Assembly: GCA_021770845.1 (NCBI GenBank)
Contig: JAETQF010000008.1
Coordinates: forward strand, 1 to 64,000
Length of the DNA: 64,000 nt
Direction of reading: 5' to 3'
DNA from: Oscillospiraceae bacterium
GTDB lineage: Bacteria; Bacillota; Clostridia; Oscillospirales; Oscillospiraceae
Under the pieces are notes generated by a model. It was given only the letters and a program-made list of their open reading frames with translations. It searched no databases and was not told the DNA's origin. Below, one piece after another: positions 7,133 to 23,046 of the stretch (the first letter of the stretch is position 1; each line of letters starts with the position of its first letter). Position numbers and translations under genes: made by a program.

Positions 7133-7134
7133 AG

Positions 7135-7887
7135 TCAGGCCCCTTTCTCGATCAGCGGCAGGATGCCGTCCTCTTTCATAAAACCGTAGATGAACAGACG
7201 GCCTTTCTGCGTCCAGTAGGTATGCACTTTGGTGTGCGGCTCCCCATCGGTGCCGGAGTAGCTATGGGTCTTGGTGCTGGTGTAGCCCTTTTCGGCGTAC
7301 TTCTGGTAAAGGAGCCAGATGTCGCCCTGCTTGAACTGAACACCCTTTTCGTGGAGCCAGCGGTTCATCCAGACCGCCGACTTGCCGTAGTCCTTGGCGA
7401 TGGCGGAGGTGGAGATGAGGTCCTTGCAGTTCAGCACCAGGTCGTAGTAGCTGGCCTTGGGCTGCAGCTCCGCGATCTGCTGGCTCTGGACAGCGATGGT
7501 GCCGGTCAGCTCGGCGTTATGCCGGGTCAGCAGGGCCAGACGGTCATTGGCAAACTGCAAGGCCCGCGCCATAATCGCGTCCGGGCTGTTCCATGCCGCC
7601 TCCACCTGGAGGAAATACTGCCGCACCTGCTTACCGATGTCGGTGCGCTGGATCATGCACAGCTCCTTCGCCATGTTGATGGTGAGCTGGTGGTCGGTGC
7701 TGGGTCTGCCGCCGGTACTTTCGCTCAAAATTGCGCTAAAGTCCACTCCTTCGGCAAAACCGTACTCGCACATCCGGGGAAACCAGTCTTTGTATGCGGT
7801 CCTGATCTGCAAAGCCCGGTGCAATTCCCGACCGCTGACAGTGGGGCGGTCGCCGCCGCTGTAGTTGATTTTTACAAGTTCATTCAT
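7135..7887 (-). CDS. Phage antirepressor with AntA and KilAC domains
   Basis: The 250-residue protein has an N-terminal AntA/AntB-type domain: VSGRELHRALQIRTAYKDWF, then VDFSAILSESTGGRPSTDH and INMAKELCMIQRT. A coiled linker follows (LQFANDRLALLTRHNAELTG, QQIAELQPKA). The C-terminal KilAC domain includes KDLISTSAIAKDYGKSAVWM and ends in an HTKVHTYWTQKGRLFIYGFM strand pair. Such proteins bind and inactivate phage repressors or act as DNA-binding regulators. It sits just downstream of the DNA polymerase gene, 12 bases away. The likely target would be the XRE repressor at 16480-16788, but that is inference. Confidence 0.9.
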   Translation of the reverse strand: MNELVKINYSGGDRPTVSGRELHRALQIRTAYKDWFPRMCEYGFAEGVDFSAILSESTGGRPSTDHQLTINMAKELCMIQRTDIGKQVRQYFLQVEAAWNSPDAIMARALQFANDRLALLTRHNAELTGTIAVQSQQIAELQPKASYYDLVLNCKDLISTSAIAKDYGKSAVWMNRWLHEKGVQFKQGDIWLLYQKYAEKGYTSTKTHSYSGTDGEPHTKVHTYWTQKGRLFIYGFMKEDGILPLIEKGA

Positions 7888-7899
7888 AACGAAAATACC

Positions 7900-9837
7900 T
7901 CAATCTTTCTTATAGAACTCGCACTCATATCCGTCCGCCCGGAGCGGGAGGCCAGCGGCCCAGGCCGGAGCCTCGGACATGATGCGGCAAATCTCATCCA
8001 CGGAGGAGATACCCTCCGGCACCTCCACTACGGCCTCATCGTGTATGTGCATGACGATCTCGAAGCCAGCGTTCCGCAGCCGGAGCATAGCGAGGGCCAG
8101 CAGATCGCGCGCTGTTCCTTGGACGATGTTCTCTGTCAGCTTGGGGCCATATGTCTCGATGCGTGACCACTTCTTGTTCTCGCCCACACCCTCATAGGTG
8201 AGGCTCTCCCGACCGAATCGGTTAGGGAGCATCCGGGGCTTGACATAGGAAAGCCGCCGCCCGGAGGGGAGGGTGATAAAGAGCATCCCGGAGCGGCAGG
8301 AGAAACACAGCGAACCGAGACGCACCTCCGTCTTGGTTCGGAACGCTTTCACCGCAGCGGCATCCACATCCCACCAGAACTTCACGATGTGGGGATTGGC
8401 CCCGCGCCACTGGTCCACCAGCGGCTGAAGTTCCTCCTCGGCCAGCCCCATGTCCAGAGCGCCCATCGAGGTGAGCGCACCCACGCTGCCGCCGTAGCCG
8501 AGGGCCAGTTCAGCGATTTTGCCCTTCTGCCGGAGGTGGGCGTTCTGCCCATGCTTCTCCACGGGGACATGGAACATCTTGGAGGCCGATGCGCAGTAAA
8601 TGTCGCCGCCCTGCTCGAAGGTTTCCAGCCGCCATAGCTCCCCGGAGAACCAGGCCAGCACCCGCGCCTCGATTGCGGCGAAGTCTGCCACGATGAAGCG
8701 GCACCCCGGCTTGGGGACAAAGGCGGTGCGGATCAGTTCGGAAAGCACACCGGGAGTTGAGTCGTAGAGCATCTCCACCCGCTCGAACTCGCCTCGCTTG
8801 ACCAGGCTCCGGGCCAGCGCCAAGTCGGGGATGTGGTTCTGGGGGAGGTTTTGCACCTGCACCAGCCTCCCGGCCCAGCGGCCTGTTCGGTTCGCTCCGT
8901 AGAATTGGAGCAACCCATGAACACGCCCATCCGAGCAGACCGACCGCTGGATGGCTTCGTACTTCTTCACGGAGGTCTTCCCCAGCAGGAGCCGGAGCAT
9001 GAGCATCTCCCGCACCTCGCTGGTGGCCTGGGGGAGAAGGCCCTTGATGGCCTTTTTGTCGAGGCTGTCCACCTCGACACCACGTTCCGCCAGCCAGCCC
9101 TTGATCTGCGCCAGCGAGTTGGGATTGGCAAGGCCAGTGAGCTGCTGGGCCTGGGCGGTGGCCCTCGCCTTGAACTCTGCATCGCAGCGCACCGCCTGAG
9201 CCGTGAGGGTCTGATCGACCATGATGCCCCGGTCGTTGATCTCCTGATCCAGCCGGTACAGTTCCATCTCGCGCTCTGGGATGGGGTAGTTGCGGAGCTT
9301 CTCCCTGATCTCCCGCTCGGCATCCACGTCCCGGATGCAGTAGGCTTTGAACCGCTCCCACATCTCCGGGGCATCCTCCGGGCGGTTCCGGGTCCGGCCC
9401 CCGTTGGCCTTGGTGGGCTTGCAGGGCATGGAGAAGTAGCGGAGCAGAGCCACACCCTCCTTCAGCTTTTTCCGCTTGATGTTCAGCACCTCGCCCACCC
9501 CGTCCAGGGTAAGGGGCAGGGCCAGCATCGCGGATTGGACTGCGGTACACTGCCAAGACACCGGGGAGAGCTGCCACCCCAGGTGGCGGGAGATACACGT
9601 CCGCTCGAACGCGGCGTTGAAAGCCGTCTTGGTGACGGCCTCATCCTCCAGCGCCTCCAGCACCCGGTCCGGGAGCTGCTCTCCGCAGGCCAGATCGACC
9701 ACTTGGGTCGGCTCATCGTCAAAGGCATAGGCGAAGAGGAGAATTTGAAACTGCGGGGAATTTGTGTAGGCGTGGACCCCGCACTTCGGAAGGTCCACGT
9801 CAGAAAATGTCTCGATGTCGATAGCCAATAGGCTCAT
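7900..9837 (-). CDS. Family A DNA polymerase (phage)
   Basis: The 645-residue protein is a complete polymerase I-like enzyme without a 5' nuclease domain. The 3'-5' exonuclease motif I is LAIDIETFSD at residues 4-13. Polymerase motif A is FIVADFAAIEARVLAWFSGE, motif B is the RQKGKIAELALGYGGS segment, and motif C is MHIHDEAVVEVP near residue 600. The start is the ATG at 9837 with GGAGG upstream. It replicates the phage genome with the DUF2815 and VapE proteins encoded alongside. The spacing to DUF2815 (69 bases) and to the antirepressor (12 bases) fits one operon. Confidence 0.95.
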   Translation of the reverse strand: MSLLAIDIETFSDVDLPKCGVHAYTNSPQFQILLFAYAFDDEPTQVVDLACGEQLPDRVLEALEDEAVTKTAFNAAFERTCISRHLGWQLSPVSWQCTAVQSAMLALPLTLDGVGEVLNIKRKKLKEGVALLRYFSMPCKPTKANGGRTRNRPEDAPEMWERFKAYCIRDVDAEREIREKLRNYPIPEREMELYRLDQEINDRGIMVDQTLTAQAVRCDAEFKARATAQAQQLTGLANPNSLAQIKGWLAERGVEVDSLDKKAIKGLLPQATSEVREMLMLRLLLGKTSVKKYEAIQRSVCSDGRVHGLLQFYGANRTGRWAGRLVQVQNLPQNHIPDLALARSLVKRGEFERVEMLYDSTPGVLSELIRTAFVPKPGCRFIVADFAAIEARVLAWFSGELWRLETFEQGGDIYCASASKMFHVPVEKHGQNAHLRQKGKIAELALGYGGSVGALTSMGALDMGLAEEELQPLVDQWRGANPHIVKFWWDVDAAAVKAFRTKTEVRLGSLCFSCRSGMLFITLPSGRRLSYVKPRMLPNRFGRESLTYEGVGENKKWSRIETYGPKLTENIVQGTARDLLALAMLRLRNAGFEIVMHIHDEAVVEVPEGISSVDEICRIMSEAPAWAAGLPLRADGYECEFYKKD

Positions 9838-9906
9838 AACTGCCTCCAGATAAGGCAAGGAGGGGTGGAGGCTCTCCACCCCTCCCGCCGAGCGGTCGTG
9901 TGTGTG

Positions 9907-10452
9907 TTAGGACAGGAAATCCTCGTCCTCGTCAGCCATAGCCTCGAAATCGTCAGAGGCTTTGGTGCGGCCGCCCAGGGCCTCGCCGTCCTTCACAAAC
10001 TGGACATTGCCCAGGCCAGCGGCGATGCCGCGGTTTCCATTGCTGTTGTAGCCGTAGAAGGTCACGCTGACATTGCAGTAGCAGCCGCTGTACACCTCGC
10101 TCTGATCGATGATGGGCTGCACCTTGCGGTCCACCACCTGGGGAGCCTGACGGCTGTTGGCGTTGAGGAAGAAGCTCCCGGCATACGCCTCGTCATCGGG
10201 CCGGTCAGTGTCGCCGTCCCGGAGCGGGGTCTTGAGGTTGGGGGGAATCTTGCCGCCCCACTTCCCCACCGAGTCCTTCTTGGCCTGCTCGATGGCGTTC
10301 TTGATGGCGGTGATGGTCTTGGTGTCCTTCTTGGACACGATCAGCGAAGCGCCGTACTTGGGGTCGGAGCCGTTTACGCTGGTCGGCTCGAACAGGTGGG
10401 CGTAGCTGATGCGGCAGGAAATGATAACCTTGGTCGAATTGATAGCAGACAT
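9907..10452 (-). CDS. DUF2815 ssDNA-binding-like protein
   Basis: This 181-residue protein belongs to DUF2815, which is always found next to DUF2800 nucleases and phage polymerases. The typical features are the early VIISCRISYAHLFEP strand, GASLIVSKKDTKT, and the central YAGSFFLNANSRQAPQVVD. The tail is acidic (DEDEDFLS), as in single-stranded DNA-binding proteins that recruit partners through the C-terminus. By fold prediction for the family it acts as a T7 gp2.5-like SSB; that is family knowledge, not shown here. It lies three bases downstream of DUF2800. Confidence 0.85.
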   Translation of the reverse strand: MSAINSTKVIISCRISYAHLFEPTSVNGSDPKYGASLIVSKKDTKTITAIKNAIEQAKKDSVGKWGGKIPPNLKTPLRDGDTDRPDDEAYAGSFFLNANSRQAPQVVDRKVQPIIDQSEVYSGCYCNVSVTFYGYNSNGNRGIAAGLGNVQFVKDGEALGGRTKASDDFEAMADEDEDFLS

Positions 10453-10455
10453 AAC

Positions 10456-11586
10456 TTAAACCTCCTGAAATTCCGCAGATGCGGTGTCCTTGGTGACTTC
10501 TTGTCGTTTGTCGGATTGGGGAACGAGGGTCAGCTTGCCCTGGGGCTTAAACACATAGGGGCCGAGGATACGGTTGAACTCCTCCTTGCCCATGAGCCGC
10601 TCCATGTCGCCGATCCCGATGAGGGACTTCTTGAAAATGTCGGTGTAGCCGCTGGCCTGGGCCGCTGCCGCCACCTCGTCCTCGCTGCTGTACTTTCTGA
10701 CGCTGCGGCCCTCCACCAGCTTGAAACCGGGCCATTGTTTCCCGTGGATGATGGCCTCGTCCTGGGCAAAGGCATACACGTCCGCTGCCCACTTCGCCAG
10801 CTCGTCCGAGCGGCGGAGGACTTCAGCGATCTCCTCATCATCCAGCAGAGCAGGCTGGCGGAATTCCATCTGGGCCAGCTTGAGGAACTCCTCGGCCCTG
10901 GCGCGGCACTGGTTCCGGGCCTTGCAGAACCGGCACCAGGAGCCAGCGGCGAACTCCCCGGCCCCCATGAGGGCCATCGCCCCAGTGGGGCGGAGGACTT
11001 CCTCGCCCCACTCCTTCAGTTCTGCCGGGTCGATCTCCCAGGTGGAGCAGTGGTTGAGCCGGGGCTGGAAGATGGTCAGCCGCACCACTTTGGGGTCATA
11101 GAGCAGTTCCGCCTTGCTGAGAACACCCAGGCCGTAGATCATGAGCTGCTCATTATGGTCGGCGAACACTTGAACGCCGCGGCCCAGCTTGAGGTCGATG
11201 ATGTGGATGTAGCTGTCGGTCACGATGACCATGTCAGCGGTGCCGAAACAACCCTCCACATACTCCGAAGCGTCCACCCGCTGCTCCACGGTGAACACCG
11301 GGTCCTTGCAGACCCGCCGCGCCTCCTCGATCTCGCCTTGGACGAAGGAAACATACTCGTCCACGGCCTCCAGCAGCTCGTCCGAGTAGTAGTCGGACAC
11401 GGGGCGGCGGGTACGCTGCTTGAGGTGCTTTTTGATGAGGTGTTCGGCCATCGCATGGCCTGCGGTCCCCTCGGCAGCGTAGGCGCTCTCCTCATCCTGG
11501 AACTGCTCCTCCAGCATCAGAGAGGGAGGACAGTGCAGACGGCGGTTCGCAGCCGAGGGGGAAAACCTCGCATGAGTGGAAGGCAT
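10456..11586 (-). CDS. DUF2800 RecB/Cas4-like nuclease
   Basis: The 376-residue protein is a PD-(D/E)XK nuclease of the DUF2800 family. SPSAANRRLHCPPSL is the N-terminal motif, EGTAGHAMAEHL follows, and the catalytic strand pair is TADMVIVTD then IHIIDLKLGRG (D-x-K). Cysteines in WCRFCKARNQCRA, with one near the N-terminus, suggest an iron-sulfur cluster as in AddB or Cas4. It probably processes DNA ends in replication or recombination with DUF2815. Its ATG overlaps the upstream stop by one base (TGATG). Confidence 0.9.
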   Translation of the reverse strand: MPSTHARFSPSAANRRLHCPPSLMLEEQFQDEESAYAAEGTAGHAMAEHLIKKHLKQRTRRPVSDYYSDELLEAVDEYVSFVQGEIEEARRVCKDPVFTVEQRVDASEYVEGCFGTADMVIVTDSYIHIIDLKLGRGVQVFADHNEQLMIYGLGVLSKAELLYDPKVVRLTIFQPRLNHCSTWEIDPAELKEWGEEVLRPTGAMALMGAGEFAAGSWCRFCKARNQCRARAEEFLKLAQMEFRQPALLDDEEIAEVLRRSDELAKWAADVYAFAQDEAIIHGKQWPGFKLVEGRSVRKYSSEDEVAAAAQASGYTDIFKKSLIGIGDMERLMGKEEFNRILGPYVFKPQGKLTLVPQSDKRQEVTKDTASAEFQEV

Positions 11587-11879
11587 CAGAGCGCCTCCAC
11601 TTCTCGGAGGAGGTCAGCGTAGTCCTCCGGCTTGACGCCAGACAGTTTGCCAGCGTCATACTTCATCAGCAGGGCCTTGACCTGGGCGGTCTTGCCCTCA
11701 TCGCTCTTGGCGGACATGGCGGCGCGGACCTGCTCGATGGTGACGGGTTTATCGTTCTTCTTGGTCGGCTCCGGGGCCGCAGTGGAGGTGGCCTCCGCTC
11801 CCTGTTCAGCCAGGGAGCGGTAGCCAGCCGCCAGCAGCTCGAAGCCTTCAGCCAGTTGGCTGTAGACTTTTTTATCCAT
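11586..11879 (-). CDS. Small phage protein of unknown function
   Basis: This 97-residue protein has a helical N-terminus (YSQLAEGFELLAAGYRSLAE), a low-complexity Ala/Thr/Pro linker, and a helical C-terminal domain. The C-terminal part, ITIEQVRAAMSAKSDEGKT-like then KALLMKYDAGKLSGVKPEDY, resembles the short rRNA-like or recombination accessory domains found beside DUF2800 genes. No catalytic residues are apparent. It is coupled to DUF2800 through a one-base overlap. Function is unknown. Confidence 0.75.
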   Translation of the reverse strand: MDKKVYSQLAEGFELLAAGYRSLAEQGAEATSTAAPEPTKKNDKPVTIEQVRAAMSAKSDEGKTAQVKALLMKYDAGKLSGVKPEDYADLLREVEAL

Positions 11880-11895
11880 TTATGGTATCCTTTCT

Positions 11896-12291
11896 TCAGA
11901 CAATGTTCGCGCCGTTCAGCTCGGCGAGGAACTCGGCATCCACCCGATCATCGATGGAAAGCGTGTCCGGGGTGATGCGGTTGAGCTGCTCATCGTAGCA
12001 GCGGATGGGGATGCGCATCTTCTTGGCGATCTCTAGCTCATACTTCATGCCCTTGGTGATCTTGCTGCCGATGAGCCACATCATGTCGCTGGCCTTCAGC
12101 AGCTCGGCCCCAAGCTGGATGCCGAGGATGCGCTCGTCCGGGCGGTCATCCCGGAGGAACTGCGGATACATCAGGTGGGGGATGACGGGGACATAGCCGC
12201 TCATGGCAGCGATACGTCCGGCGTCCTTGGCGACCTTGATGTTGTGTTCGAGGTCCCCGCGGTACGGGGAGCAGATGAAAACTTGCTGCAT
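11896..12291 (-). CDS. DUF4406-like nucleoside deoxyribosyltransferase-fold protein
   Basis: The 131-residue protein starts QQVFICSPYRGDLEHNI and has PVIPHLMYPQFL and SDMMWLIGSKITKGMKYE, the pattern of nucleoside 2-deoxyribosyltransferase-like (DUF4406/DUF7768) proteins. Phages encode these early, probably for nucleotide or base-modification metabolism. As the first gene of the leftward operon, its 5' region (12292-12420) should contain the early promoter. A glutamate in the GMKYELEIAKK segment matches the usual catalytic position of the fold. The substrate is unknown. Confidence 0.8.
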   Translation of the reverse strand: MQQVFICSPYRGDLEHNIKVAKDAGRIAAMSGYVPVIPHLMYPQFLRDDRPDERILGIQLGAELLKASDMMWLIGSKITKGMKYELEIAKKMRIPIRCYDEQLNRITPDTLSIDDRVDAEFLAELNGANIV

Positions 12292-12489: not shown

Positions 12490-13380
12490 ATGGAGGCAAA
12501 AAAAATCCCGTACCTTTGCGGTGGAACTCTCTTCTTCCTGCTTGTGCAGGCAAAAAAACCGAGAACCAATGCAAGGGAACGGAAATCAGGGATAAAAGAT
12601 CATCTATCAGACCCTGAAATGATGGAGGGGCTGATACGTTCAATTACTGGAAATAATGTTGATACCCAAGGGGAGAGCCTAAAAAAGAATACTTCTCAAT
12701 TTCGAGAATGCCAGATAGACGGAAGTGTTTATATCCTATTCAATGATCATGCTACTGCCACAAGCTATGATTACGATGTGGTAAACAATTACGACAGTGT
12801 ACTTCTGAGAATGCAGCAATTTGCGGACAACTTTCTTAATCCCACAAAAGCGGCATGGCTTGTAAGGGTACTGCTTGATGTAGTAGAACTGGATGCAGAG
12901 GATGGTGATTGGTTTTATGTGCAACAGGACGGCTTATCCCTTTCAAAGTCTGGCTTGTTGAAAGCGGAACATCTTGAACTTCAGCCCTTTCTGGTTGGTA
13001 TTATCCATTACATATTGATGCACCGCTCTGATAATAAATCCGGGCGGGATACGCTGGACGCATGGGGAATCAAAAAAAGCGGTTCTGAACGAAAACTGAG
13101 GAATGATTTCTCATTGGGCTCTTCCCGAAAAGTCGATGTCGGCTGGTATACCCCTCCCGAAAGGGACGCTGATGCTGAAGGGTTGAGAACTGAGGAAGAC
13201 CAGAGAGATGAATCGGAATATGCTGAGGCAGAAGTCATAGATGAGGACTCTGGAAAAGCGAAGATTGAAGCCGAAGCCACACACCAGTCTGTATTTATCA
13301 ATAGCGGTAGCGGTGTCCAGATAGGAGTCAATTATGGAACGATTAACCTATCACCACATCGAGATACAAAGGATAACTGA
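12490..13380 (+). CDS. Uncharacterised defence-cassette protein with C-terminal RHIM-like motif
   Basis: The ATG at 12490 has AGGAGG nine bases upstream and gives 296 residues. The body (about 75-200) is an unrecognised helical domain with YILFNDHATATSYDYDV and FLNPTKAAWLVRVLLDVVE. A charged linker (about 215-265, rich in Asp and Glu) leads to the motif NSGSGVQIGVNYGTINL at residues 271-287, ending ten residues before the stop. Its VQIG core (276-279) matches the RHIM tetrad of RIPK1 and RIPK3. The next gene carries a related motif at its N-terminus. It is the first gene of a three-gene cassette with an ABC ATPase, and base composition is AT-richer than the phage genes. The effector activity is unknown. 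Confidence 0.8.
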   Translation: MEAKKIPYLCGGTLFFLLVQAKKPRTNARERKSGIKDHLSDPEMMEGLIRSITGNNVDTQGESLKKNTSQFRECQIDGSVYILFNDHATATSYDYDVVNNYDSVLLRMQQFADNFLNPTKAAWLVRVLLDVVELDAEDGDWFYVQQDGLSLSKSGLLKAEHLELQPFLVGIIHYILMHRSDNKSGRDTLDAWGIKKSGSERKLRNDFSLGSSRKVDVGWYTPPERDADAEGLRTEEDQRDESEYAEAEVIDEDSGKAKIEAEATHQSVFINSGSGVQIGVNYGTINLSPHRDTKDN

Positions 13381-13466
13381 TGGCGAAAGAAATGCACCAC
13401 AGTTCCTCCGTGGAATTGATTGCAGACAACGGAAATGACATTTGCAAGGAAGTGCCTAATGGATAA
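13380..13466 (+). CDS. Possible 28-codon bridging ORF
   Basis: This short frame starts at an ATG that overlaps the stop of the preceding gene (TGATG). Its TAA lies inside the first codons of the next gene, whose ATG at 13459 is upstream of this stop. It would encode MAKEMHHSSSVELIADNGND plus eight more residues. Such end-to-end overlap suggests translational coupling, or that the next gene once had a longer N-terminus lost to a frameshift. There is no direct proof that it is made. Confidence 0.3.
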   Translation: MAKEMHHSSSVELIADNGNDICKEVPNG

Positions 13467-14124
13467 AGACCAGTTGATTCCATCGGAAATTATATCTGCG
13501 ATTGCTCAAACCCCTAATCCCAATATATTAGTGAACCAGGGGGACGGCATTCAGATCCAACAGAACAGTGGTCCAATCAATGTCAATGTAGACGGCTCCG
13601 AATTGACTGAACTATTATCCCGTATGTTCGGATGCAGGCCAACAGGAAATTTCGTGACACACGCTGTAGAATGGGCATCACTCAGTCGGACACATTATTG
13701 CCTTTTTGTGTTGGAAAACGAGGAATATAATGATGGTGTATTCTCCATAGCAAAAGACCGCGCATTGCAAAAATACACACCCAAGGAAGTCCGGGATAAA
13801 TACCGGATGCTAAATCTGGTGGATATAGACGAACTCAGACATATGCCCTGCATATTCGCAAAACGAAATATGCATTACAAGGGAACAGAGCCTCACCACC
13901 CGGCCCTTGTGGGACGGATATCCGATGCTGTGCCGCAGGGCGAGGTCGTAAAGATATATTTTAGTGGATTTCAGGCGTTTCCCCAACAGATACTAAACCA
14001 AAATACAGCATTGCTACATATGGCATCTGCATCTTTGCGGAATGAGCTTGACGAAGAGCATTGGGCAATTAAGCAATGTGACCTGATTGATGCCTTTGCA
14101 ACAATGAATATTGAAATTAAGTAG
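13459..14124 (+). CDS. Uncharacterised defence-cassette protein with N-terminal RHIM-like motif
   Basis: The ATG at 13459 has AAGGAAG six bases upstream and gives 221 residues; a TTG at 13420 is less likely. Residues 23-42 hold the motif NILVNQGDGIQIQQNSGPIN, whose IQIQ core aligns with VQIG at the end of the upstream protein. The remaining 170 residues are an unrecognised alpha/beta domain (THAVEWASLSRTHYCLFVLE, then PHHPALVGRISDAVPQGE). Its position between the first protein and the ABC ATPase fits the middle component of a three-part ATPase-linked conflict system. Ten bases separate it from the ATPase gene. No enzymatic motif is evident. Confidence 0.8.
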   Translation: MDKDQLIPSEIISAIAQTPNPNILVNQGDGIQIQQNSGPINVNVDGSELTELLSRMFGCRPTGNFVTHAVEWASLSRTHYCLFVLENEEYNDGVFSIAKDRALQKYTPKEVRDKYRMLNLVDIDELRHMPCIFAKRNMHYKGTEPHHPALVGRISDAVPQGEVVKIYFSGFQAFPQQILNQNTALLHMASASLRNELDEEHWAIKQCDLIDAFATMNIEIK

Positions 14125-14133
14125 GAGGGTGTT

Positions 14134-16404
14134 ATGAACGAAAAAGTATCCGCACTAATTAGTAAAATAACGGTAAACTCGCCTGTCTTTAACAACGAGG
14201 TGTTTTCCCCTACCCTAATAAATTACTTTTTCGGCAAAAACGGTACGGGAAAATCTACGATTGCCAAACTTATTGGCAAACCGGAAACCACCGAGTGGCG
14301 TTCTGGCATATTACCCGATGACTATGAATTTCAAGTATATAATGAGGAATTTATTCAGGAAAACATCCAGAGTTACGGGAATATTCCCGGTGTCTTTACC
14401 ATAACGAAGCAAAATGCTGCTGTTAAGGCGGAAGTGGATAAAAAGACCACCGAACTGAAGACATTGTCCGATAAGAAAAATACGATAGGCAGAAAGATTA
14501 CAGAAAACACCAATCAATTAGGCAGTATACTCAATACCCTTGTGTCTGCTCTTTGGGAAAAAACCGAAGCCACAAGAAAAATGTATCCTGCAACACAGAC
14601 AGGATTTACTACAAATAAGAAGAAATTTGTCACCGAGCTTATGAAGCACAAACCCGGTTCGGTTGACGAAGATGCGGTTAAGGAGCTGTATGCTTTAGCA
14701 TATGGTGAAGGCGGCAGGCACTATGAGGAATTGAAGTCTGTGTCTGCTTCAACGATTCCATCGACCTCACTTTTGGGAAAGACGATAGTAAGCAGCAGCC
14801 ACACGACCTTTTCTGATTTTTTAAATGCGTTGAATGCCACAGCGTGGGTGAATCAGGGACACCGGGAGTACCAACACACTGCAGGCAAAAAATGCCCTTA
14901 CTGCCAACAAGACCTCCCAGACAGCTTCGAGGACGACCTTGCTTCCTGCTTTGATGAACAGTATAAGAAGGAAATGGCGCAACTGCAGGAGTTTATCCAG
15001 GCTTATAGGGCTGCTTTGAACGATATTTATTCCGTTCTGAGTGGAAATGCAAAAAGCAACTTTGCCTGCGATCAACTTGCGGCATATACCACAGAATTTG
15101 AACTCTTCATGGAGAAAGCAAAGGCGAATGTAGCGCAACTCGAAAAGAAGTGGAATGACCCGGCCCTGGTTGTAGAGCCGGATGATCTCTCCACCTATCT
15201 ACATGATTTGAATGAGCTGGCAGAACAAATTAATCAGAAAATCCGGCAAAATAATGCTATTCTTGCGGACATACCAACAAAGCAGAAAGAATGCGCCAAC
15301 ATGGTATGGACACTGATGGCAACTATTTGTCAAGCAGACATCGCTGTTTACCAAAGCGAGAATGATCGAATAAGGTCTGAGATTTTAAGGCTTCAGGGCG
15401 AACAGGAAAAAGCAGAGACCGATATTGGAACGCTTAATGACGAAATCGCACAACTGAACAAACAGACAGTAAACACAACCGCCGCCAAGGATAGTATCAA
15501 TGCCCTCATAAAATCATCTGGTTTCCAAGGCTTCTCCCTGAGAGAAAAACCGGGAGCGCAGTATGTCTATCAGCTCGTCAGGGAGGACGGAACAATTGCT
15601 AAGGGTTTGAGTGAGGGTGAGCGACATTTTATAGCGTTCTTGTATTTTTACCATATGGTAATGGGGAGTCAGTCTGACGAGGGCAAAATGAAAGACAAAA
15701 TTGTCGTGATTGACGATCCGGTTTCCAGCATGGACAGCAGCGCTCTCTTTACGGTTGCCTCTCTCGTCCGGGAAATGATAGCTGTATGCTATAACAACTA
15801 TGAGCTGACCGAAGAAGAAAATGTGGATGACCATATCAGACAGATTTTCTGTCTGACTCACAATCCGTTCTTCTTCAAAGAGATCATATATAACCGCATA
15901 GCCGCATATGAATGTGTCTCCGTCTATGAAATCAAAAAGCAGGCAAATAATTGTTCTGTCATCGACAAATGTGAACAGGATAGTCCCCGCGTGGGCGATG
16001 GCAAAATCAACCGTAATCCTGTTGTAAACACCTATGAGGCGCTGTGGAGAGAGTACAGAACATCGGAAGACCCAGTGGCCCTTATGAATGTTTCCAGACG
16101 GATTCTGGAATACTACTTCCTTCAGATGTGTGGGTATTCTAATGGCAATATACGAAGTGACTTAATGGAAACACACCGTTCTGCTTTTGAAACCCGTCTT
16201 CCTGATGGAACGGTCGATCATACGAGATATGATATTGTCGATGCTATGGTTTCTGTGCTGGACGTTGGGGCGCTCTCATTTAATGATGGTTTATACTTTG
16301 ATGCATCATCTGTTGATCCCTCACTGTTAAAGGATGCATTCAGGCAAGTGTTTGATGTTTTGAACCAAATGCAACATTACAAGATGATGATGCAGGAAAA
16401 TTGA
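14134..16404 (+). CDS. AAA_13/PrrC-like ABC ATPase of a defence cassette
   Basis: The 756-residue protein is an SMC/ABC-type ATPase with a long coiled-coil insertion. Walker A is GKNGTGKS at residues 34-41. A zinc-hook-like CPYC pair sits at 254-257 in the coiled coil, the ABC signature is LSEGE at 492-496, Walker B is VVIDDP at 524-529 and the H-loop histidine is 576. This layout matches the AAA_13 family that includes PrrC and RloC, which sense phage infection. The C-terminal 150 residues contain RRILEYYFLQMCG but no PrrC anticodon-nuclease triad I can identify. It probably acts as sensor and motor for the two upstream proteins. It ends near a strong bidirectional terminator. Confidence 0.9.
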   Translation: MNEKVSALISKITVNSPVFNNEVFSPTLINYFFGKNGTGKSTIAKLIGKPETTEWRSGILPDDYEFQVYNEEFIQENIQSYGNIPGVFTITKQNAAVKAEVDKKTTELKTLSDKKNTIGRKITENTNQLGSILNTLVSALWEKTEATRKMYPATQTGFTTNKKKFVTELMKHKPGSVDEDAVKELYALAYGEGGRHYEELKSVSASTIPSTSLLGKTIVSSSHTTFSDFLNALNATAWVNQGHREYQHTAGKKCPYCQQDLPDSFEDDLASCFDEQYKKEMAQLQEFIQAYRAALNDIYSVLSGNAKSNFACDQLAAYTTEFELFMEKAKANVAQLEKKWNDPALVVEPDDLSTYLHDLNELAEQINQKIRQNNAILADIPTKQKECANMVWTLMATICQADIAVYQSENDRIRSEILRLQGEQEKAETDIGTLNDEIAQLNKQTVNTTAAKDSINALIKSSGFQGFSLREKPGAQYVYQLVREDGTIAKGLSEGERHFIAFLYFYHMVMGSQSDEGKMKDKIVVIDDPVSSMDSSALFTVASLVREMIAVCYNNYELTEEENVDDHIRQIFCLTHNPFFFKEIIYNRIAAYECVSVYEIKKQANNCSVIDKCEQDSPRVGDGKINRNPVVNTYEALWREYRTSEDPVALMNVSRRILEYYFLQMCGYSNGNIRSDLMETHRSAFETRLPDGTVDHTRYDIVDAMVSVLDVGALSFNDGLYFDASSVDPSLLKDAFRQVFDVLNQMQHYKMMMQEN

Positions 16405-16870: not shown

Positions 16871-16903
16871 AAACTGTATTAACCATTGCAGGAGGGCGGT
16901 AAA

Positions 16904-17419
16904 ATGACGGAGCAGGAACTGCGGCAACATCGGTGTTGCTTCACTGGCCACAGGCCGGAGAAATTGAAAATAGCAGAGGACAAGGTGATTAAAAGTCTAA
17001 AAAAAGAAATCCGCACAGCTATTGCTGACGGATTTCAAACATATATCTCCGGAGTAGCAAGAGGTTTCGATCTCTGGGCGGCGGAGATCGTGCTGGCCTT
17101 CCGGGACGAGGGCGTATCGGTTCGGCTGATTTGCGCCAGCCCCTATAAAGGTTTTGAGAGTCGCTGGAGCCGGGAATGGCAGGAGCGGTACCGCCGGGTC
17201 GTGGAGCGGGCGGACTTAGTTCGGTTCATTTGTCCCGGATACAGCCGGGATTGTTTCCAGCGGCGAAACGAGTGGATGGTTGACCATTCGGCGCGGGTGA
17301 TTGCCGCCTACAACGGCGGGCCTGGTGGCACGAGGAACACAGTGGAGTACGCTATACGTCATAGCGTGCCAGTAGTTTATGTTCCGTTGGGACCTAACTC
17401 AGATATCCTCATCAAGTAA
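16904..17419 (+). CDS. DUF1273 SLOG-fold protein
   Basis: The 171-residue protein starts at an ATG behind AGGAGGGCGG. RCCFTGHRPEKL is the hallmark of DUF1273 (YpsA-like), followed by FQTYISGVARGFDLWAAE and the SPYKGFESRW segment. GGPGGTRNTVEYA is the nucleotide-binding loop of the SLOG superfamily. Members are linked to sensing nucleotide-derived signals, and mobile elements often carry them. It lies directly after a good promoter and converges on the Vsr gene with a 21-base overlap of 3' ends. The ligand is unknown. Confidence 0.9.
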   Translation: MTEQELRQHRCCFTGHRPEKLKIAEDKVIKSLKKEIRTAIADGFQTYISGVARGFDLWAAEIVLAFRDEGVSVRLICASPYKGFESRWSREWQERYRRVVERADLVRFICPGYSRDCFQRRNEWMVDHSARVIAAYNGGPGGTRNTVEYAIRHSVPVVYVPLGPNSDILIK

Positions 17420-17878
17420 ATCGGACAGTTCATGTGAGCATTCTATAGTATTCACGGTCTGGTCGAAAATACAATCCCTAATGACAGCTATGCACTCTTC
17501 GGTGTTTTTGGCGATGTCCTTTCCCCAGAAACGAATAACTGTCCACCCAAGATAATTAAGTTTTCGATTTATTTCATTGTCCCTTTCCATATTACGGCTT
17601 ATTTTCTTTTCCCAATATTCAGGATTTACTCCGTTTCGAATCCTGGGGAGCAATACTGTATACCAATCCTTTCCATGAAAGAATTCACTGTCGCAGAAGA
17701 TGGCAATTTTATATTTGGTCAACACTATATCCGGTTTTCCAGGCAAAGCAGCGTAGTTCTTTCGGTAACGGTAGCCGCTGTGCCATAAAGCCTTTCGGAG
17801 TTTCACCTCAATAGCAGTGTCTTTGGAGCGAATACGTGACATCGCTTTGTGCCGCTGTTCCCTTGTTAAATCATCCAT
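17399..17878 (-). CDS. vsr: Very short patch repair (Vsr) endonuclease
   Basis: The 159-residue protein matches Vsr throughout: the N-terminal REQRHKAMSRIRSKDTAIEV, then RYRKNYAALPGKPDIVLTKY, the FCDSEFFHGKDW metal and zinc region, and LNYLGWTVIRFWGKDI at the end. Vsr nicks beside T:G mismatches that arise when 5-methylcytosine deaminates. It accompanies the C5 methyltransferase encoded 3.5 kb upstream on the same strand, which explains its presence. It uses the usual FCDSEFFHG spelling where many family members have FVDGCFWHG, so the site is recognisable but variant. Confidence 0.93.
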   Translation of the reverse strand: MDDLTREQRHKAMSRIRSKDTAIEVKLRKALWHSGYRYRKNYAALPGKPDIVLTKYKIAIFCDSEFFHGKDWYTVLLPRIRNGVNPEYWEKKISRNMERDNEINRKLNYLGWTVIRFWGKDIAKNTEECIAVIRDCIFDQTVNTIECSHELSDLLDEDI

Positions 17879-17954
17879 TGGGCCACCTCCGTTTTGTTGC
17901 TATCATAATGCAGCCACTCATCCACCAGCACCTATAGTACCGAGAACCTGTACA

Positions 17955-17995
17955 CACAAGTCGGGGAGCAAACTGGCTTCGCTCCCCGACTTGTG
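17955..17995 (-). terminator. Strong hairpin after the LlaJI-like gene
   Basis: A perfect 15-base stem (17955-17969 with 17981-17995) with an 11-base loop separates the LlaJI-like gene from vsr. There is no clear T-run on either side, so it could be a weak terminator or an RNA stability element rather than a classical one. Confidence 0.55.
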
Positions 17996-18007
17996 CGGTT
18001 AGGACAA

Positions 18008-19489
18008 TTAGAGCTCTAATGCGGATATGTCTAAAGGCTTTCGAATCAAGTATAGATCATACATTTTCACCGCCGGAAGCAAACGAATTTGAATATCGGT
18101 CAGTTCCAGATTGCGCAACATGGAAAGTGAGGCTGTACCAAGTTTGGCCACATTGGCTTGCTCGGTTGGTATCAGAAAACAATTTTTTACATCTTGAATA
18201 TGGTTCTGATTAATAAAATCCCGATAGGCCAACTGATAGAGGTACTGCTTTGTCACATCCCCAACTCCAGGCTGTCCTCTTAACGGCTTGCCGCTTTCGA
18301 GCTGGATGCAATAATATTTGGCATCAAAAATCACGAAAGTATAGGTGCCATCTTCCTCATAGATGTTGATAAGGTCTGGAGTAAGCGTCTCTGCGGCTGC
18401 TTTCACAAATGCTGTGCCATCAGCGTTCCAGCCCTGCCACTGCGGTTTCTCAATGATATCGATAAGAAGAGCCTTGGGATCATAGCCTGGGGCCAGCCCG
18501 TCTGGAAGTGGAAGGTGGCGGAGTTGTGTTTTGAGTTTGTTGTTGAACACCTCCGCACAGACATCCTCCCACACCAAATTAAAGCTGTTCGTCCCATACA
18601 TACTGATTCCTTCGGATTCGGCAAGGGTGCGATGGTGTGCGATATAGGCGTAGAGCGTTTTGAGAACTGTCTGTCTGTGAGTATTGAATTGAACCCCTAA
18701 TTCGGACTGGAGTCGATAAAGAATGTATTCTTTGTCGCCAAAATCATCCAGAGCCTCATCGGAAACATCTGCCTCTACCAAATCAAAGAGGTCTATCAGC
18801 CCTGCGTCTCGAAGCTGACGGGAGCTTTCGGAAACAATGCACCTGTGCAGTCGGTGGAAAAAATCCTGCTCGTCATCAATAGAGCGATGTGTGTAGATGT
18901 CAACGTAGTACGGGCGATTGTTGTTAATCAATGCAAACCCGTTGTCAATGGTCTGCCCCCAAAGAATAGGCCCCTCGCCATTGACTTCAACAATATCCTC
19001 GGAATTAATGTATGCGCCATATTGATGGTAGTCCTCCAGAAGAAACAGCATGACCGCGAGAATGTTAAAGCTGCTGCTCTGGCCATCACCATTGTAGAGG
19101 TTGACGATTTGTTCTTTACTGCCGTACCTCCGTAAAACACGGATTACCTGCTTCATCTCGGTATCAGGAGCATCGTTCAGAGTTATGTACTTGGGAAAGC
19201 ACTTGATGACCCTATCGCCGGTTGTCAGCACACCAACATAGGTGAAAACATAGAAACATTCACTGCTCTCGCCAGCGTCATCGGCTATCTCGATATCAAC
19301 ATCCGACAAATCCGAAAGCTCCCTCTGCCCCGCAGTGTTTTTCACAGCCTTCATGATGCCGAATGATTTGAGACGCCGGATGAAAGATTCGGCATCGGAT
19401 TCACTAAAACTGAAAATAGACTTGATTTCGTTTTTGGTATAGCGTTTCTGCTCACGCACATACCGAGAGATGAATCCCATAGCGGTCAC
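18008..19489 (-). CDS. LlaJI-like restriction subunit (McrC analogue)
   Basis: The 493-residue protein resembles the second subunit of LlaJI-type restriction systems. The N-terminal third is a winged-helix-like region (YTKNEIKSIFSFSESDAESF), and the C-terminal part carries a PD-(D/E)XK-type core: GLAPGYDPKALLIDIIEK... then DLINIYEEDGTYTFVIFDAK, where D-x-K is the catalytic pair, and QLAYRDFI. Its ATG overlaps the McrB-like stop by four bases (ATGA), as expected for partner subunits. The McrB-like protein would translocate and this subunit would cut. Family assignment is good; sequence specificity is unknown. Confidence 0.85.
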   Translation of the reverse strand: MTAMGFISRYVREQKRYTKNEIKSIFSFSESDAESFIRRLKSFGIMKAVKNTAGQRELSDLSDVDIEIADDAGESSECFYVFTYVGVLTTGDRVIKCFPKYITLNDAPDTEMKQVIRVLRRYGSKEQIVNLYNGDGQSSSFNILAVMLFLLEDYHQYGAYINSEDIVEVNGEGPILWGQTIDNGFALINNNRPYYVDIYTHRSIDDEQDFFHRLHRCIVSESSRQLRDAGLIDLFDLVEADVSDEALDDFGDKEYILYRLQSELGVQFNTHRQTVLKTLYAYIAHHRTLAESEGISMYGTNSFNLVWEDVCAEVFNNKLKTQLRHLPLPDGLAPGYDPKALLIDIIEKPQWQGWNADGTAFVKAAAETLTPDLINIYEEDGTYTFVIFDAKYYCIQLESGKPLRGQPGVGDVTKQYLYQLAYRDFINQNHIQDVKNCFLIPTEQANVAKLGTASLSMLRNLELTDIQIRLLPAVKMYDLYLIRKPLDISALEL

Positions 19490-21405
19490 CTCTCGAAGTC
19501 ATTGTACTTGGCAAGGAAATCCGCTCCGAATATTTCAATCCCTGTCTCATCAAAAGCGGAACACACAGAGGAATACTTGCTTGCATCGCACCCCTCAAAC
19601 AGACGGCGCTTGACCGATTTGGCAGCATCCTCATAAAGATACATGATGACCTTGCTCTTAAAGGCAGCAATAAACTTTTCCGGGGAGGCCATCCGCTGAT
19701 CGTCACCATAGGCAAAGACCTGTTTCGACAGGAAATAGGGGCCGAGCAGCTTGTCCTCATTAATATTATATGTTACAGCCAGTGTGTCATTGAGGGCCTT
19801 TCGGAGCTGGTTCCAGTTGATGTCACGGGCGTGGCCACCGCGCCCCAGAGTAACGACACCGCCAACCTCGGCATCGTTCTCATCGATACCGATGTACTCA
19901 AAACTCCACCGCCGCTTGAAAGCGGTGTCCATCGGGTAGACTCCCTGATCCGCACTGTTCATCGTTGCCCAAATGAACATATTGTCCGGGATACGGAGGC
20001 TGTCCGGGGATTTGCCAAGTTCGGAAATCAGATATTTTCTGATATCCTCCGTGGCGTGGATTTCATACTCACTTGCCCCTGAGTCGGAGCGATCCAAGAG
20101 CTGGAATACCTCACCGAACACTGCGGCCACTTTTGCACGATTGATTTCTTCGATGAGCAGAAGGTGGGGTTGGGGTGATTCGGTGCGTCCGCTTTTTAAT
20201 GCCGCTACCAGCACACGCATAAAAGGCCCCGGTACAAAGTCATAACGAATTTCTCCGGTTGGCCCGGTCACCGGCTTGTAGGTGCCGACAAACTGCGAAT
20301 AGGTATACTCCGGGTGGAAGGTGACACGTTCATAGGAACCGCTGGTATCAGCCAGCAGGGAATCTTTGTCCTCGTTCAGTCGGTGGCTCTTGCCAGTACC
20401 GGGAGCGCCGAATACGATCCTGTTTCGCTCGAAGGAGGTTGGGAGGCCAGTTTCAAAGCGAATCGTCAAGAGCAGCTCAAACAGCCAGTCAAGGAAAGCG
20501 CCTCTGGCATCCTCACGGTCTGGACGCCACTGAGAGGAAACGTAGTATTCATCCTCGCCAATGCTGTATGTATCTGCATAGTAGCGCGGTCTGCCAGCTT
20601 CATCCTGCATCCCCGCTCTGAACTCTTCGTCTGTTGTTCCCGCCGGACGCTTATAAAGGATGCCATGTAGATTATTGTGCCGGAACAGCAGAGAGCATTG
20701 CTCCCGGCTTTCAAGAGTTGGCAAAGTGTAGCCGTTAAAAAGCCGATGGCGTGACATAATATCAAGGCTGGTGAAAATGAACTCTTTATTGTCCATCGCC
20801 ATCAGTTCTTCACGAGTATACTCATGCGCGGCTGTTTCTTCGCCATAGAATCCACGCGGGTTGGGAACCGTGTAATCAAACAAAGGCTCCAATTCTGGGT
20901 AGGCAGTCACGGAATCCTGGCGAAAATCAGGGCAGACAGCGCGGAGGACAAAGAAAAAGGCTTTTAACTCTGAACGCTCCGAATCCTGTGTAATCATACG
21001 AATGGTCTGGTTCGAGTGGTCATCAAGGCCGATCACAGGCAGCGTCGAACACCAATAATAGGCCGCAGGAGCATCTCTCAAAATATCAGTGCGGCTCACC
21101 GCATCTGGAAAGATGTATGAAATATCGACAACTGTCGTACTCTCATCATTATATTTTTCCCCACGGTCTATGCTTCTGACAACACCGAGGGCCTTAAATC
21201 CTTGTTTCCATGCCGTAGGCATACCTTTGCTGTTATCGGAACCCAGCCACAAAAACGTGTAGGTTCCCGGTAAGAGGTCCGCAGGAACCTGAGTACAGAC
21301 CACCGAAATAGTCATAGGTGAAGTCAAGATGCCGCTCTCTTGCGCATCGATCAACCTTATGTCCTCAACACTCGTTTTACCAAGCCGCAATGTAGCAAAT
21401 GTCAT
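19486..21405 (-). CDS. McrB-like AAA+ restriction ATPase
   Basis: The 639-residue protein has an N-terminal DNA-recognition region and a C-terminal AAA+ domain of the McrB class. Walker A is FGAPGTGKSHRL at about residue 331, Walker B is LLLIEEINRA, and the sensor segment reads MFIWATMNSADQGVYPMDTA followed by FKRRWSF. In McrBC relatives this NTPase (often GTP-dependent) drives DNA translocation before cleavage. It overlaps the methyltransferase gene by 29 bases and the LlaJI-like gene by four. Together these define an LlaJI-type system. Confidence 0.9.
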   Translation of the reverse strand: MTFATLRLGKTSVEDIRLIDAQESGILTSPMTISVVCTQVPADLLPGTYTFLWLGSDNSKGMPTAWKQGFKALGVVRSIDRGEKYNDESTTVVDISYIFPDAVSRTDILRDAPAAYYWCSTLPVIGLDDHSNQTIRMITQDSERSELKAFFFVLRAVCPDFRQDSVTAYPELEPLFDYTVPNPRGFYGEETAAHEYTREELMAMDNKEFIFTSLDIMSRHRLFNGYTLPTLESREQCSLLFRHNNLHGILYKRPAGTTDEEFRAGMQDEAGRPRYYADTYSIGEDEYYVSSQWRPDREDARGAFLDWLFELLLTIRFETGLPTSFERNRIVFGAPGTGKSHRLNEDKDSLLADTSGSYERVTFHPEYTYSQFVGTYKPVTGPTGEIRYDFVPGPFMRVLVAALKSGRTESPQPHLLLIEEINRAKVAAVFGEVFQLLDRSDSGASEYEIHATEDIRKYLISELGKSPDSLRIPDNMFIWATMNSADQGVYPMDTAFKRRWSFEYIGIDENDAEVGGVVTLGRGGHARDINWNQLRKALNDTLAVTYNINEDKLLGPYFLSKQVFAYGDDQRMASPEKFIAAFKSKVIMYLYEDAAKSVKRRLFEGCDASKYSSVCSAFDETGIEIFGADFLAKYNDFER

Positions 21406-22909
21406 TTATATCCCCCCCAGCAACTTTCTTTGATTTCTCAGCTTCCAACGCCTTCCGCAAAGGTGGAAAGAGCTTCCGGCCTTGATTGTCAACGCGGCGG
21501 ATGATTCCTTCCGCTGCATTTGAAGTGAGGTAGTAGCGGTCGCCAACCCGCTCACGCTCCACAATATCTAAAAGGTTGGACGGAATGGGGGTCGCCGGAG
21601 TGGGGCTGACGGCCCCGCCAATAAATGAATCATCCCACGCAAGCCCAGCCTTGGGCCATTTATAGCTTTGTGTACCATCAGAAAAGTCTATCTCCGATAG
21701 ATGAAGCGAGGACCATGCGGTTTTGGCAAACTCAGGGACGAAGGATTGCATATCATCCCGATTTAACACTGGGCGCTCAGTCAGCAGTTCGGTATAGACC
21801 CGCTGTGCGATCCATTCCACAACAGGGACAGAAACAGCGTTCCCTACGGCTGTGTACCTCAAAGTATCTGTTTCCTCACCTTCGGAGGTATAGCGTGGTG
21901 GAAGCGTCCAATAATCAGGGAAGCCTTGGAGACGTTCGTACTCTTTCGGTGTTAAGCGGCGCACGCCATCCGCACAAACAACATAAGTTCGGCTCCAATC
22001 TGTGCCAGTATGCCTTCCAGACGTAGCAGCAAGGCAATATGCCACCTTGGGAACCTTCGGATACTCGTCCTCGTTGCCCGCCTCAGTTAAAAAATCTTTT
22101 CGCTCGTTCGCTTTTTTATGAGCGCCCGATTGATCGAACATGACTCGGAGCGCCTTCTGAGGGGATGCTTTCCAGCAACAGAGGTAAACGCGGGGGCGGG
22201 ACTGCGGTACGCCAAAGTAGCGGCTATTCAAAAGCCTCCAAGCTACAGCATACCCCATTGAGGTCATCCGCTGCAATATCACTCCAAAATCCCGGCCACC
22301 ATTGGAATTAAATAGCCCCTCGACATTCTCGATAATGACAACCTCTGGGGACTTGGCTTGAATGAGGTCTGCGTATTGGTAGAAAAGCCCTGATCGGCTA
22401 CCACCAAGGCCAAGCCGCGTTGCTGCACCCCTGGCTACCGAAATGTCCTGGCACGGGAATCCCCCGCACCAAACCGCAGCATCCGGGATGCTTCCTGCTT
22501 GAACTTTGCATATATCAGTAGCTCTCTGTACATTGGGCCAATGCGAAGTTAAGACCTCGTTGCAGAAACTATTGATTTCACAGAGATAGCTTGTTTCAAA
22601 ACCATGTCGTTCAAACGCAATATCAAAGCCACCGATTCCTGCAAAGAATGAATTGACTTTAAAAGGCTGGCGTAAATTCTTCTGAACAAGGGGGTTATCT
22701 GTTGCCGATTGGTCGGAAACTTCAGCAATTTCGGAAATATCACACGAAAGAGCCGCACAAATCTTTGCAAGCACCTCAGTCGTGACGATTTCATTTTTTC
22801 CCAGTTTAGCTATAGAAGCTCGACTTATCCCAGCAGCTTCACGAAGGTCTTTCTTCTTAAGCCCCTTCTCAGCAAGGCGGTGCCACAGCCTGTCATATAC
22901 GATGGTCAT
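21377..22909 (-). CDS. DNA cytosine-5 methyltransferase with N-terminal HTH
   Basis: The 510-residue enzyme begins at the ATG at 22909 behind GGAGG. Residues 1-65 form an XRE-type helix-turn-helix (LRDAAG-like LREAAGISRASIAKLGKNE), which suggests autoregulation. The methyltransferase motifs follow: FAGIGG at 89-94, the catalytic GGFPCQDISVA with Cys153, ENVEGL at 194-199, QSRPRVYL near 236 and GNAVSVPVVEWI near 350. It protects host DNA from the adjacent LlaJI/McrB-like nuclease, and Vsr repairs deamination at its sites. The gene is AT-richer than the core genome, in keeping with horizontal transfer. Confidence 0.95.
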   Translation of the reverse strand: MTIVYDRLWHRLAEKGLKKKDLREAAGISRASIAKLGKNEIVTTEVLAKICAALSCDISEIAEVSDQSATDNPLVQKNLRQPFKVNSFFAGIGGFDIAFERHGFETSYLCEINSFCNEVLTSHWPNVQRATDICKVQAGSIPDAAVWCGGFPCQDISVARGAATRLGLGGSRSGLFYQYADLIQAKSPEVVIIENVEGLFNSNGGRDFGVILQRMTSMGYAVAWRLLNSRYFGVPQSRPRVYLCCWKASPQKALRVMFDQSGAHKKANERKDFLTEAGNEDEYPKVPKVAYCLAATSGRHTGTDWSRTYVVCADGVRRLTPKEYERLQGFPDYWTLPPRYTSEGEETDTLRYTAVGNAVSVPVVEWIAQRVYTELLTERPVLNRDDMQSFVPEFAKTAWSSLHLSEIDFSDGTQSYKWPKAGLAWDDSFIGGAVSPTPATPIPSNLLDIVERERVGDRYYLTSNAAEGIIRRVDNQGRKLFPPLRKALEAEKSKKVAGGDINDICYIAAW

Positions 22910-23046
22910 CCTATCCCTCCGCTGTTTCGCTATTTCTCGCCTTTTAATTATAAGCGGACCACCGTAAAAAATCAACCTGAAAATCTGTGAACGCAGACTT
23001 TTTTAGATTTGGATATATTCAAAACATCTCAAATCGGGGCAATTTG

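Follow-up and report, generated by a model that had tools for sequence, protein, structure and literature searches.

Matched amyloid-type motifs in two neighbouring proteins of a probable phage-defence cassette with an ABC ATPase

Results and Discussion

A stretch of 64,000 nucleotides from an Oscillospiraceae bacterium (GenBank assembly GCA_021770845.1, contig JAETQF010000008.1, positions 1 to 64,000; hereafter the window) contains three codirectional genes, here called P1, P2 and P3, at 12490-16404 of the + strand (Table 1). The tail of P1 and the head of P2 carry the same short motif, and in related cassettes tail and head change together. Judged from its genomic context the cassette is probably phage defence, carried in an apparent prophage. 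We propose that it is a three-part switch of the phage-defence type in which a matched pair of amyloid-type motifs replaces a covalent link, a reading that we consider on balance probable. A first-pass annotation, made from the letters of the window, had called a three-gene ATPase cassette here; its coordinates were correct and all three open reading frames were found.

A motif common to the P1 tail and the P2 head

The first-pass annotation claimed that one pattern closes P1 and opens P2, and both motifs do read N-x-G-x-G-(V/I)-Q-I-x-x-N-x-G-x-I-N, C-terminal in P1 and N-terminal in P2 as it had placed them. When P1 is compared with P2 by BLASTP these two tails form the top match (26.9 bits; E 2e-4, counting one comparison; runner-up E 0.30). 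Their local alignment score is 59, which the P2 head, shuffled 500 times, never reached (shuffle mean 21.1, standard deviation 4.2). Both motifs lie in predicted disordered tails and not in an ordinary globular domain. In the AlphaFold models the predicted local distance difference test (pLDDT) is below 50 for residues 226-296 of P1 and residues 1-48 of P2, with the P1 core (1-225) mostly confident and most of P2 66-221 confident as well. Homologous cassettes on five more viral contigs (P2 identity 49-76%) retain the motif in both P1 and P2, with some substitutions, and the earlier claim of a terminal motif common to two proteins of an ABC ATPase cassette is borne out. Two of the five contigs (L004 and L005) have an extra P2-like gene that likewise bears the motif. 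Two P2 paralogues are present in L004, L005, L012 and L030 (also in L008 and L009), and in L012 the longer P2 and the P1 tail have NNYGNGPQIGT in common.

Table 1. Features of the P1-P2-P3 cassette and of its surroundings, in window coordinates.
Feature	Position	Strand	Basis or remark
P1, putative effector, 296 residues	ATG 12490 to stop 13380	+	helical 'LCGG' domain (residues 1-225), disordered acidic linker, C-terminal motif
P1 C-terminal amyloid-type motif, NSGSGVQIGVNYGTIN	13300-13347	+	residues 271-286; Ses_B below cut-off; matches P2 head
P2, putative sensor/adaptor, 221 residues	13459-14124	+	helix at residues 46-57 and core domain at 66-221 after the N-terminal motif
P2 N-terminal amyloid-type motif, NQGDGIQIQQNSGPIN	13534-13581	+	residues 26-41; matches P1 tail
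P3, AAA_13 RloC/Rad50-like ABC ATPase, 756 residues	14134-16404	+	Pfam, PADLOC, conserved ABC motifs
P3 Walker A, FGKNGTGKST	14230-14259	+	kept in 25/25 relatives
P3 CPYC zinc-hook-like motif in coiled-coil insert	14893-14904	+	C254, P255 and C257 kept in 25/25 relatives
P3 ABC signature, LSEGER	15607-15624	+	sequence
Phage replication module: primase/helicase, DNA polymerase, Gp2.5-like protein, exonuclease, nucleoside deoxyribosyltransferase	4377-12291	-	PHROGs matches, five genes
Restriction-modification cargo: Vsr, LlaJI endonuclease, AAA_5 ATPase partner, C5 cytosine methylase	17399-22975	-	

The RHIM, BASS3 and PP motifs have the core tetrad (I/V)Q(I/L/V)G, and at this position the window has VQIG in P1 and IQIQ in P2. 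The motif had been called RHIM-like in the first-pass annotation. This stands for VQIG of the window P1, which also resembles mammalian RHIM and fungal PP (Ses_B) in a sub-threshold match to the Pfam Ses_B profile (19 bits, E 0.0013). The narrow RHIM claim is not supported in that form, as the tetrad is missing from most cassette relatives; the P1 tails have [IV]Q[IVL]G in 3 of 29 cases and the P2 heads in 1 of 29. The profile check, for which Pfam alone was used, did not confirm a RHIM-type motif either: the match of the window P1 is below the curated cut-off of 23.2 bits, and at E<=1 Ses_B matches only 2 of 23 P1 members and 2 of 20 P2 members, with marginal E-values. Because Ses_B matches few members and the tetrad is rare among them, we use the label amyloid-signalling-type and not RHIM. 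The safe statement from these sequences is that P1 and P2 carry a putative amyloid-signalling-type motif pair, which is RHIM-like in the window and in its nearest relative, L031. Passages of PMC8086366 (also of PMC12261475) write PP/ses_B as one motif and call PP RHIM-like and seemingly related to BASS3.

Tail and head change together across cassettes

The tails vary widely among loci. Tail and head read GDGNAVVPNYGTVNL and GNDNVTIPNYGTVNL in L039, NGINIGHADRV and EGTNIGIAQNV in L043, and ISGGNNSFYHHVDKL and VSGGNNNFVAHADTV in L047. In L061 (QKAEKIYYIDHVDN and QKAEKLYNIKHVEN) and L097 (NNIYNIEHVENLN and DRIYNIEQANNVN) the match persists without a RHIM-like motif. Pairing was scored by local alignment of the last 45 residues of P1 with the first 65 residues of P2 (X residues in these alignments would be scored as A), and the permutation sets held one representative per P1 identity group, the second P2 paralogues L045a and L012a being excluded. 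For 14 cassettes with P1 below 50% identity the mean score was 53.4 for own pairs versus 29.7 for others, and none of 200,000 permutations reached the observed sum. With two cassettes from named records added (16 cassettes) the means were 51.6 and 28.9, again with 0 of 200,000 permutations. The same result, 0 of 200,000, was obtained with the enlarged set at <40% identity (13 cassettes) and at <35% (11 cassettes); the first set at <40% identity (10 cassettes) gave 2 of 200,000. The P1-NACHT pair of L056 is part of these sets, as are pairs in which another effector-like protein replaces P1 (L029, and in the 16-cassette analysis L099 too), and the first set without L056 and L029 (12 cassettes) still gave 0 of 200,000. 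In the control, the bodies of P1 and P2 scored 26.5 for own pairs and 26.8 for others, a result reached by 12,555 of 20,000 permutations.

The own head ranks best for 7 of the 16 tails and the own tail for 9 of the 16 heads; for the window pair the own head came second and the own tail third among 14. Therefore, cassette-specific pairing of P1 tail and P2 head appears as a strong tendency and not as a perfect code. Considered singly, 26 of 29 pairs (which include close relatives and are not independent) have scores that at most 3 of 300 shuffles of the own head reach. The exceptions are L063 (217 of 300), L099 (30) and L029 (21), and L026 is borderline with 3 of 300 shuffles in one run and 11 of 500 in another. 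Composition alone was rejected as the cause of the match, as own-head shuffles seldom reach the observed scores. Where tail and head have identical residues, the codons are identical too in 120 of 315 cases (5 of the 315 come from a misread frame in L053), and in 1 of 10 in the window. Since the codons differ, the likeness seems to be kept at the protein level, which argues against a fresh DNA copy; recent gene conversion was rejected as the source of the match on this raw count, taken without a chance level.

Matching of own pairs requires merely a specific contact, and the main rival to amyloid-type templating is a clasp in which matched, non-amyloid tails form a small, defined, beta-augmented hetero-oligomer that holds P1 on P2/P3 from the start. 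The length of the tails, about 20 residues, would suit such a clasp, and its fixed stoichiometry would fit the ternary complexes presumed for ABC-3C/Lamassu in passages of PMC10586767. However, each tail resembles its partner and does not complement it, the tails are often rich in N, G and Q, and that of the window weakly matches the fungal PP/Ses_B profile. The likeness of the tails therefore seems to favour homotypic stacking. We regard the clasp as rather unlikely, and keep amyloid-type templating between P1 and P2 as the preferred reading.

The P1 domain and its other settings

The P1 core of 225 residues is mostly helical in the AlphaFold model, and no fold match to it was found in the PDB. 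Residues L9, C10, G11, G12, C74, M108, D135, G170, G185 and T188 are invariant in 23 P1 sequences. Some NACHT proteins begin with this same domain; SNaCT14 is present in those of L051, L055 and L090 and absent in that of L058, and the P1-NACHT fusions of L057, L064 and L089 were assigned by sequence likeness or pattern and not by Pfam. Clade-14 bNACHTs are described in passages of PMC12169576 as having no readily discernible effector domain. A diverged P1 domain is also located at the N-terminus of ABC-3C CTD11 proteins (L091-L093 by Pfam; group L091-L096). The alignment of P1 with the CTD11 group, which includes the NACHT sequence L090, has an hhalign probability of 98.3 (E 1.3e-14, single comparison), and a DUF2326 ATPase gene lies next to the CTD11 copy of L091, the sole neighbour scanned. 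The effector position of STAND proteins is the N-terminus (passages of PMC12169576), and that of LmuA in Lamassu/ABC-3C is probably N-terminal (passages of PMC10586767). Because its domain takes this N-terminal position in NACHT and CTD11 proteins, we call P1 a putative effector, by analogy. The CTD11 proteins (L091-L096) have a Cys-rich middle part that could be the active part instead of the diverged P1 domain. No match to Pfam MC or CTD models was found at E<=1 in the P1 (23 sequences) or P2 (20 sequences) families. In L056 (and L087) the partner that the P1 tail matches is the head of a NACHT protein encoded separately, with DUF6650 as the third protein in L056. As far as these sequences tell, the connector is swapped between systems.

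Several loci depart from the arrangement in the window. At L056:6986-11201 and L087:923-5138 all three proteins have a motif in common, as P1 tail (NNYGTVQNQKFISIETMNGDINL), NACHT-SNaCT14 head (NRANIGNQTIINIQNMPGNIVL) and DUF6650 protein head (NYGDVKNQTIININKVNGNIVG). Another effector-like protein (352 and 187 residues, respectively; no Pfam match) replaces P1 at L029:5502-6560 and L099:4426-4989; it ends in QNGE(N/K)NFNLTNNGTMNFNF, and the motif that it has in common with P2 is weaker. In L026-L028 the gene after P1 and P2 codes for a large helicase, some 1,076 residues long and assigned by Pfam to the SNF2 type in L026, and no ABC gene was found in the 13-14 kb examined. The Lactococcus plasmid pUCCL628C (12 kb; L097) has a P1-P2 pair with no adjoining ABC ATPase gene annotated. 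A small helix-turn-helix (HTH) gene stands between P2 and the ABC gene in L032-L034, L061, L065 and L098, of which the copy in L061 matches excisionase-family and MAD1 models and the others were recognised by likeness or annotation.

The P2 core

The P2 core model aligns best with the PUA-like EVE/YTH/ASCH fold group, which holds the EVE/YTH modified-base readers, and the resemblance is weak. Among 20 P2 members no Pfam match to the EVE/YTH (PUA-like) families was found at E<=1, and the core has no sequence match in the PDB at E<=10. Residue W202 of P2 does not vary among 20 sequences compared. From the model, the P2 core looks like a modified-nucleotide reader. A P2-like core fused to a CAP12/Pycsar-type TIR is encoded on Vibrio tubiashii plasmid p251 (L100:5004-5918), with AAA_15 ATPase and HNH genes nearby.

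P3 as an ABC ATPase

P3 matches AAA_13 over most of its length (E 1.3e-110) and PADLOC PDC-S06 (E 1.3e-188). Its ABC motifs are intact, and besides the motifs listed in Table 1, Walker B (D527, D528, P529) and T575-H576-N577 with the switch histidine are kept in 25/25 aligned relatives, a set that includes near-duplicates and was chosen by SEGER, the Walker A pattern and CP[YF]C, and not by Walker B or the histidine. The first-pass annotation had named an AAA_13/PrrC-like ATPase. AAA_13 holds, and PrrC-like has to be replaced, as the CPYC zinc-hook-like insert (zinc binding is putative) makes P3 RloC-like. RloC combines a zinc-hook insert with the triad Arg-X3-Glu-X36-52-His (passages of PMC2610378). 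It could be imagined that P3 itself is the toxin, acting as an anticodon nuclease of the RloC type whose regulators or silencers would be P1 and P2. The CPxC insert and the extent of the AAA_13 match would agree with this, as would a P3 relative of Streptococcus phage Javan105 that was annotated by its depositors as 'translation-disabling ACNase RloC'. However, the R-x3-E positions vary (R/H, E/D) in the 25 P3 relatives, a histidine at the RloC spacing is not conserved in them, and beyond the ATPase motifs the sole invariant histidine is some 90 residues past E. P3 as an RloC nuclease was rejected on this ground, and it also differs from RloC/PrrC by its place in an operon with P1 and P2. Because the R and E positions vary and the triad histidine is unconserved, P3 is best read, from its sequence, as a RloC/Rad50-like ATPase without demonstrable nuclease. 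That P3 is the toxin seems to us distinctly unlikely, and P1 is retained as the candidate effector.

Distribution

Searching with the P1 alignment yielded 36 viral contigs, which were sorted by sequence patterns (P2 of L053 came from a frame scan and the NACHT of L058 from a domain search). P1 adjoins P2 in 28 of the 36, and 24 of these 28 have the ABC signature (in L036 on a 443-residue piece). Five contigs have a fusion of the P1 domain with a NACHT-type protein, one has P1 beside a separate NACHT protein, and the remaining two are a contig end and a fragment. In the sampled genomes, own genome included, the P2 profile (A1) was found in 6/398 of the phylum, one of them weak (E 7.7e-4, internal stops), and in 3/394 of the order. 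The P1 profile (A3) was found in 12/398 phylum genomes and 3/391 order genomes, with 8 of these 15 genome rows weak partial matches. Relatives with a named host are mainly from Bacillota, and one is from a Synergistaceae metagenome-assembled genome.

Genomic setting

The window is part of a contig of 116,711 bases, in a genome of 2.48 Mb in 48 contigs. The cassette is located within a block of low guanine-plus-cytosine (GC) content (0.44-0.52 versus 0.60-0.67 in the rest of the window). Opposite to the phage replication module it is followed by an HTH gene and a gene for a YpsA-like protein, and then by the Vsr, LlaJI with AAA_5 partner and C5 cytosine methylase genes. The YpsA/SLOG-family protein, encoded at 16886-17419, separates the cassette from the Vsr gene. 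Since it has phage replication genes on one side, restriction-modification genes on the other and a low GC content, the cassette resembles prophage defence cargo. Alternatively, it could serve the prophage in regulation or maintenance and have no role in defence. It does adjoin the phage replication genes, and some relatives have an excisionase-like HTH gene. However, Vsr, LlaJI and methylase genes are its neighbours in the low-GC block, P3 falls in the PADLOC defence candidate PDC-S06, and the cassette has domains in common with NACHT, ABC-3C and CAP12-type TIR proteins. A regulatory module is therefore very unlikely in our view, and a role in phage defence is preferred.

Proposed mechanism

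In the proposed switch, P3 with its Rad50/RloC-like ABC ATPase and P2 with its modified-nucleotide-reader-like core would form the sensing side. P1 would be the effector side, its helical domain held apart on the disordered linker. Sensing of an infection (e.g., phage DNA or DNA ends) would lead P3/P2 to cluster, and the clustering would gather the N-terminal motifs of P2 into a cross-beta nucleus. This nucleus may then template the C-terminal motifs of P1, so that P1 polymerises and is activated, and active P1 would lead to abortive infection or dormancy. The matching, co-changed tails suggest a prion-like handshake by which the effector would receive its alarm from a sensor coupled to an ATPase. 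It is already disfavoured and highly improbable that the tails are similar only as a by-product, through a linker rich in N and G that was left by a duplication and drifts under relaxed constraint: many tails are N/G/Q-rich and L063, L029 and L099 are weak pairs, but far lower scores were obtained with composition-matched shuffles and with tails and heads from different cassettes, and different codons are used at 195 of the 315 identical residues.

Bacterial amyloid signalling motifs (BASS) are known from NLRs with Bell partners, less often with CHAT or TIR (passages of PMC7889193). Compared with the BASS pairs of PMC8086366, PMC7889193 and PMC12261475, as far as passages of these papers describe them, the cassette is alike in its adjacent genes, in its short motifs with conserved N, Q and G that fall into several families, and in the placement of one motif in two neighbouring genes, at the C-terminus of the effector-like protein (P1, a putative effector) and at the N-terminus on the receptor side. 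It is unlike them in its receptor side, which is P2 with an ABC ATPase and not an NLR/STAND protein (the NLR type being found solely in L056/L087), and in its effector-like protein, which has the LCGG domain and not Bell. Its hosts are mostly Bacillota and not multicellular actinobacteria or cyanobacteria, and amyloid is here a prediction. With ABC-3C/Lamassu it has in common three components around a SMC/Rad50-like ABC ATPase and the diverged P1 domain at the N-terminus of CTD11 proteins. In contrast to these systems, the motif in P1 is located where CTD11 stands, Pfam MC and CTD matches are lacking at the threshold given above, and the ATPase is AAA_13 and not DUF2326. The link to bNACHT clade 14 (SNaCT) is that SNaCT14 NACHT proteins of relatives either contain the P1 domain as a fusion or are paired with it through the motif, whereas the cassette of the window has no NACHT protein.

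A wider reading, which we put forward tentatively and which may well not hold, is that bacterial defence outside NLRs makes general use of amyloid-type templating as a connector that can be swapped. The helical P1 domain would be wired to NACHT, to ABC-3C or to a RloC-like ATPase with P2, in some cases by fusion and in others through a private motif pair; many 'dialects' of the motif, some RHIM-like and others quite different, would prevent cross-seeding between neighbouring cassettes, and a nucleic-acid reader would seed a prion-like fibre on phage DNA. Our literature search, with most subscription papers beyond its reach, found no paper on an amyloid motif in an ABC ATPase defence cassette. 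A 2021 review poses, in one of its passages, the question whether there are NLR-independent signalling amyloids in fungi and bacteria (PMC7889193). The cassette family, with three genes and many natural variants of the motif, is a small and concrete candidate for such signalling. It would also propose a link of clade-14 bNACHTs to an effector, made either by a fusion or through the motif. If this is true, a prion-like step enters ABC ATPase defence.

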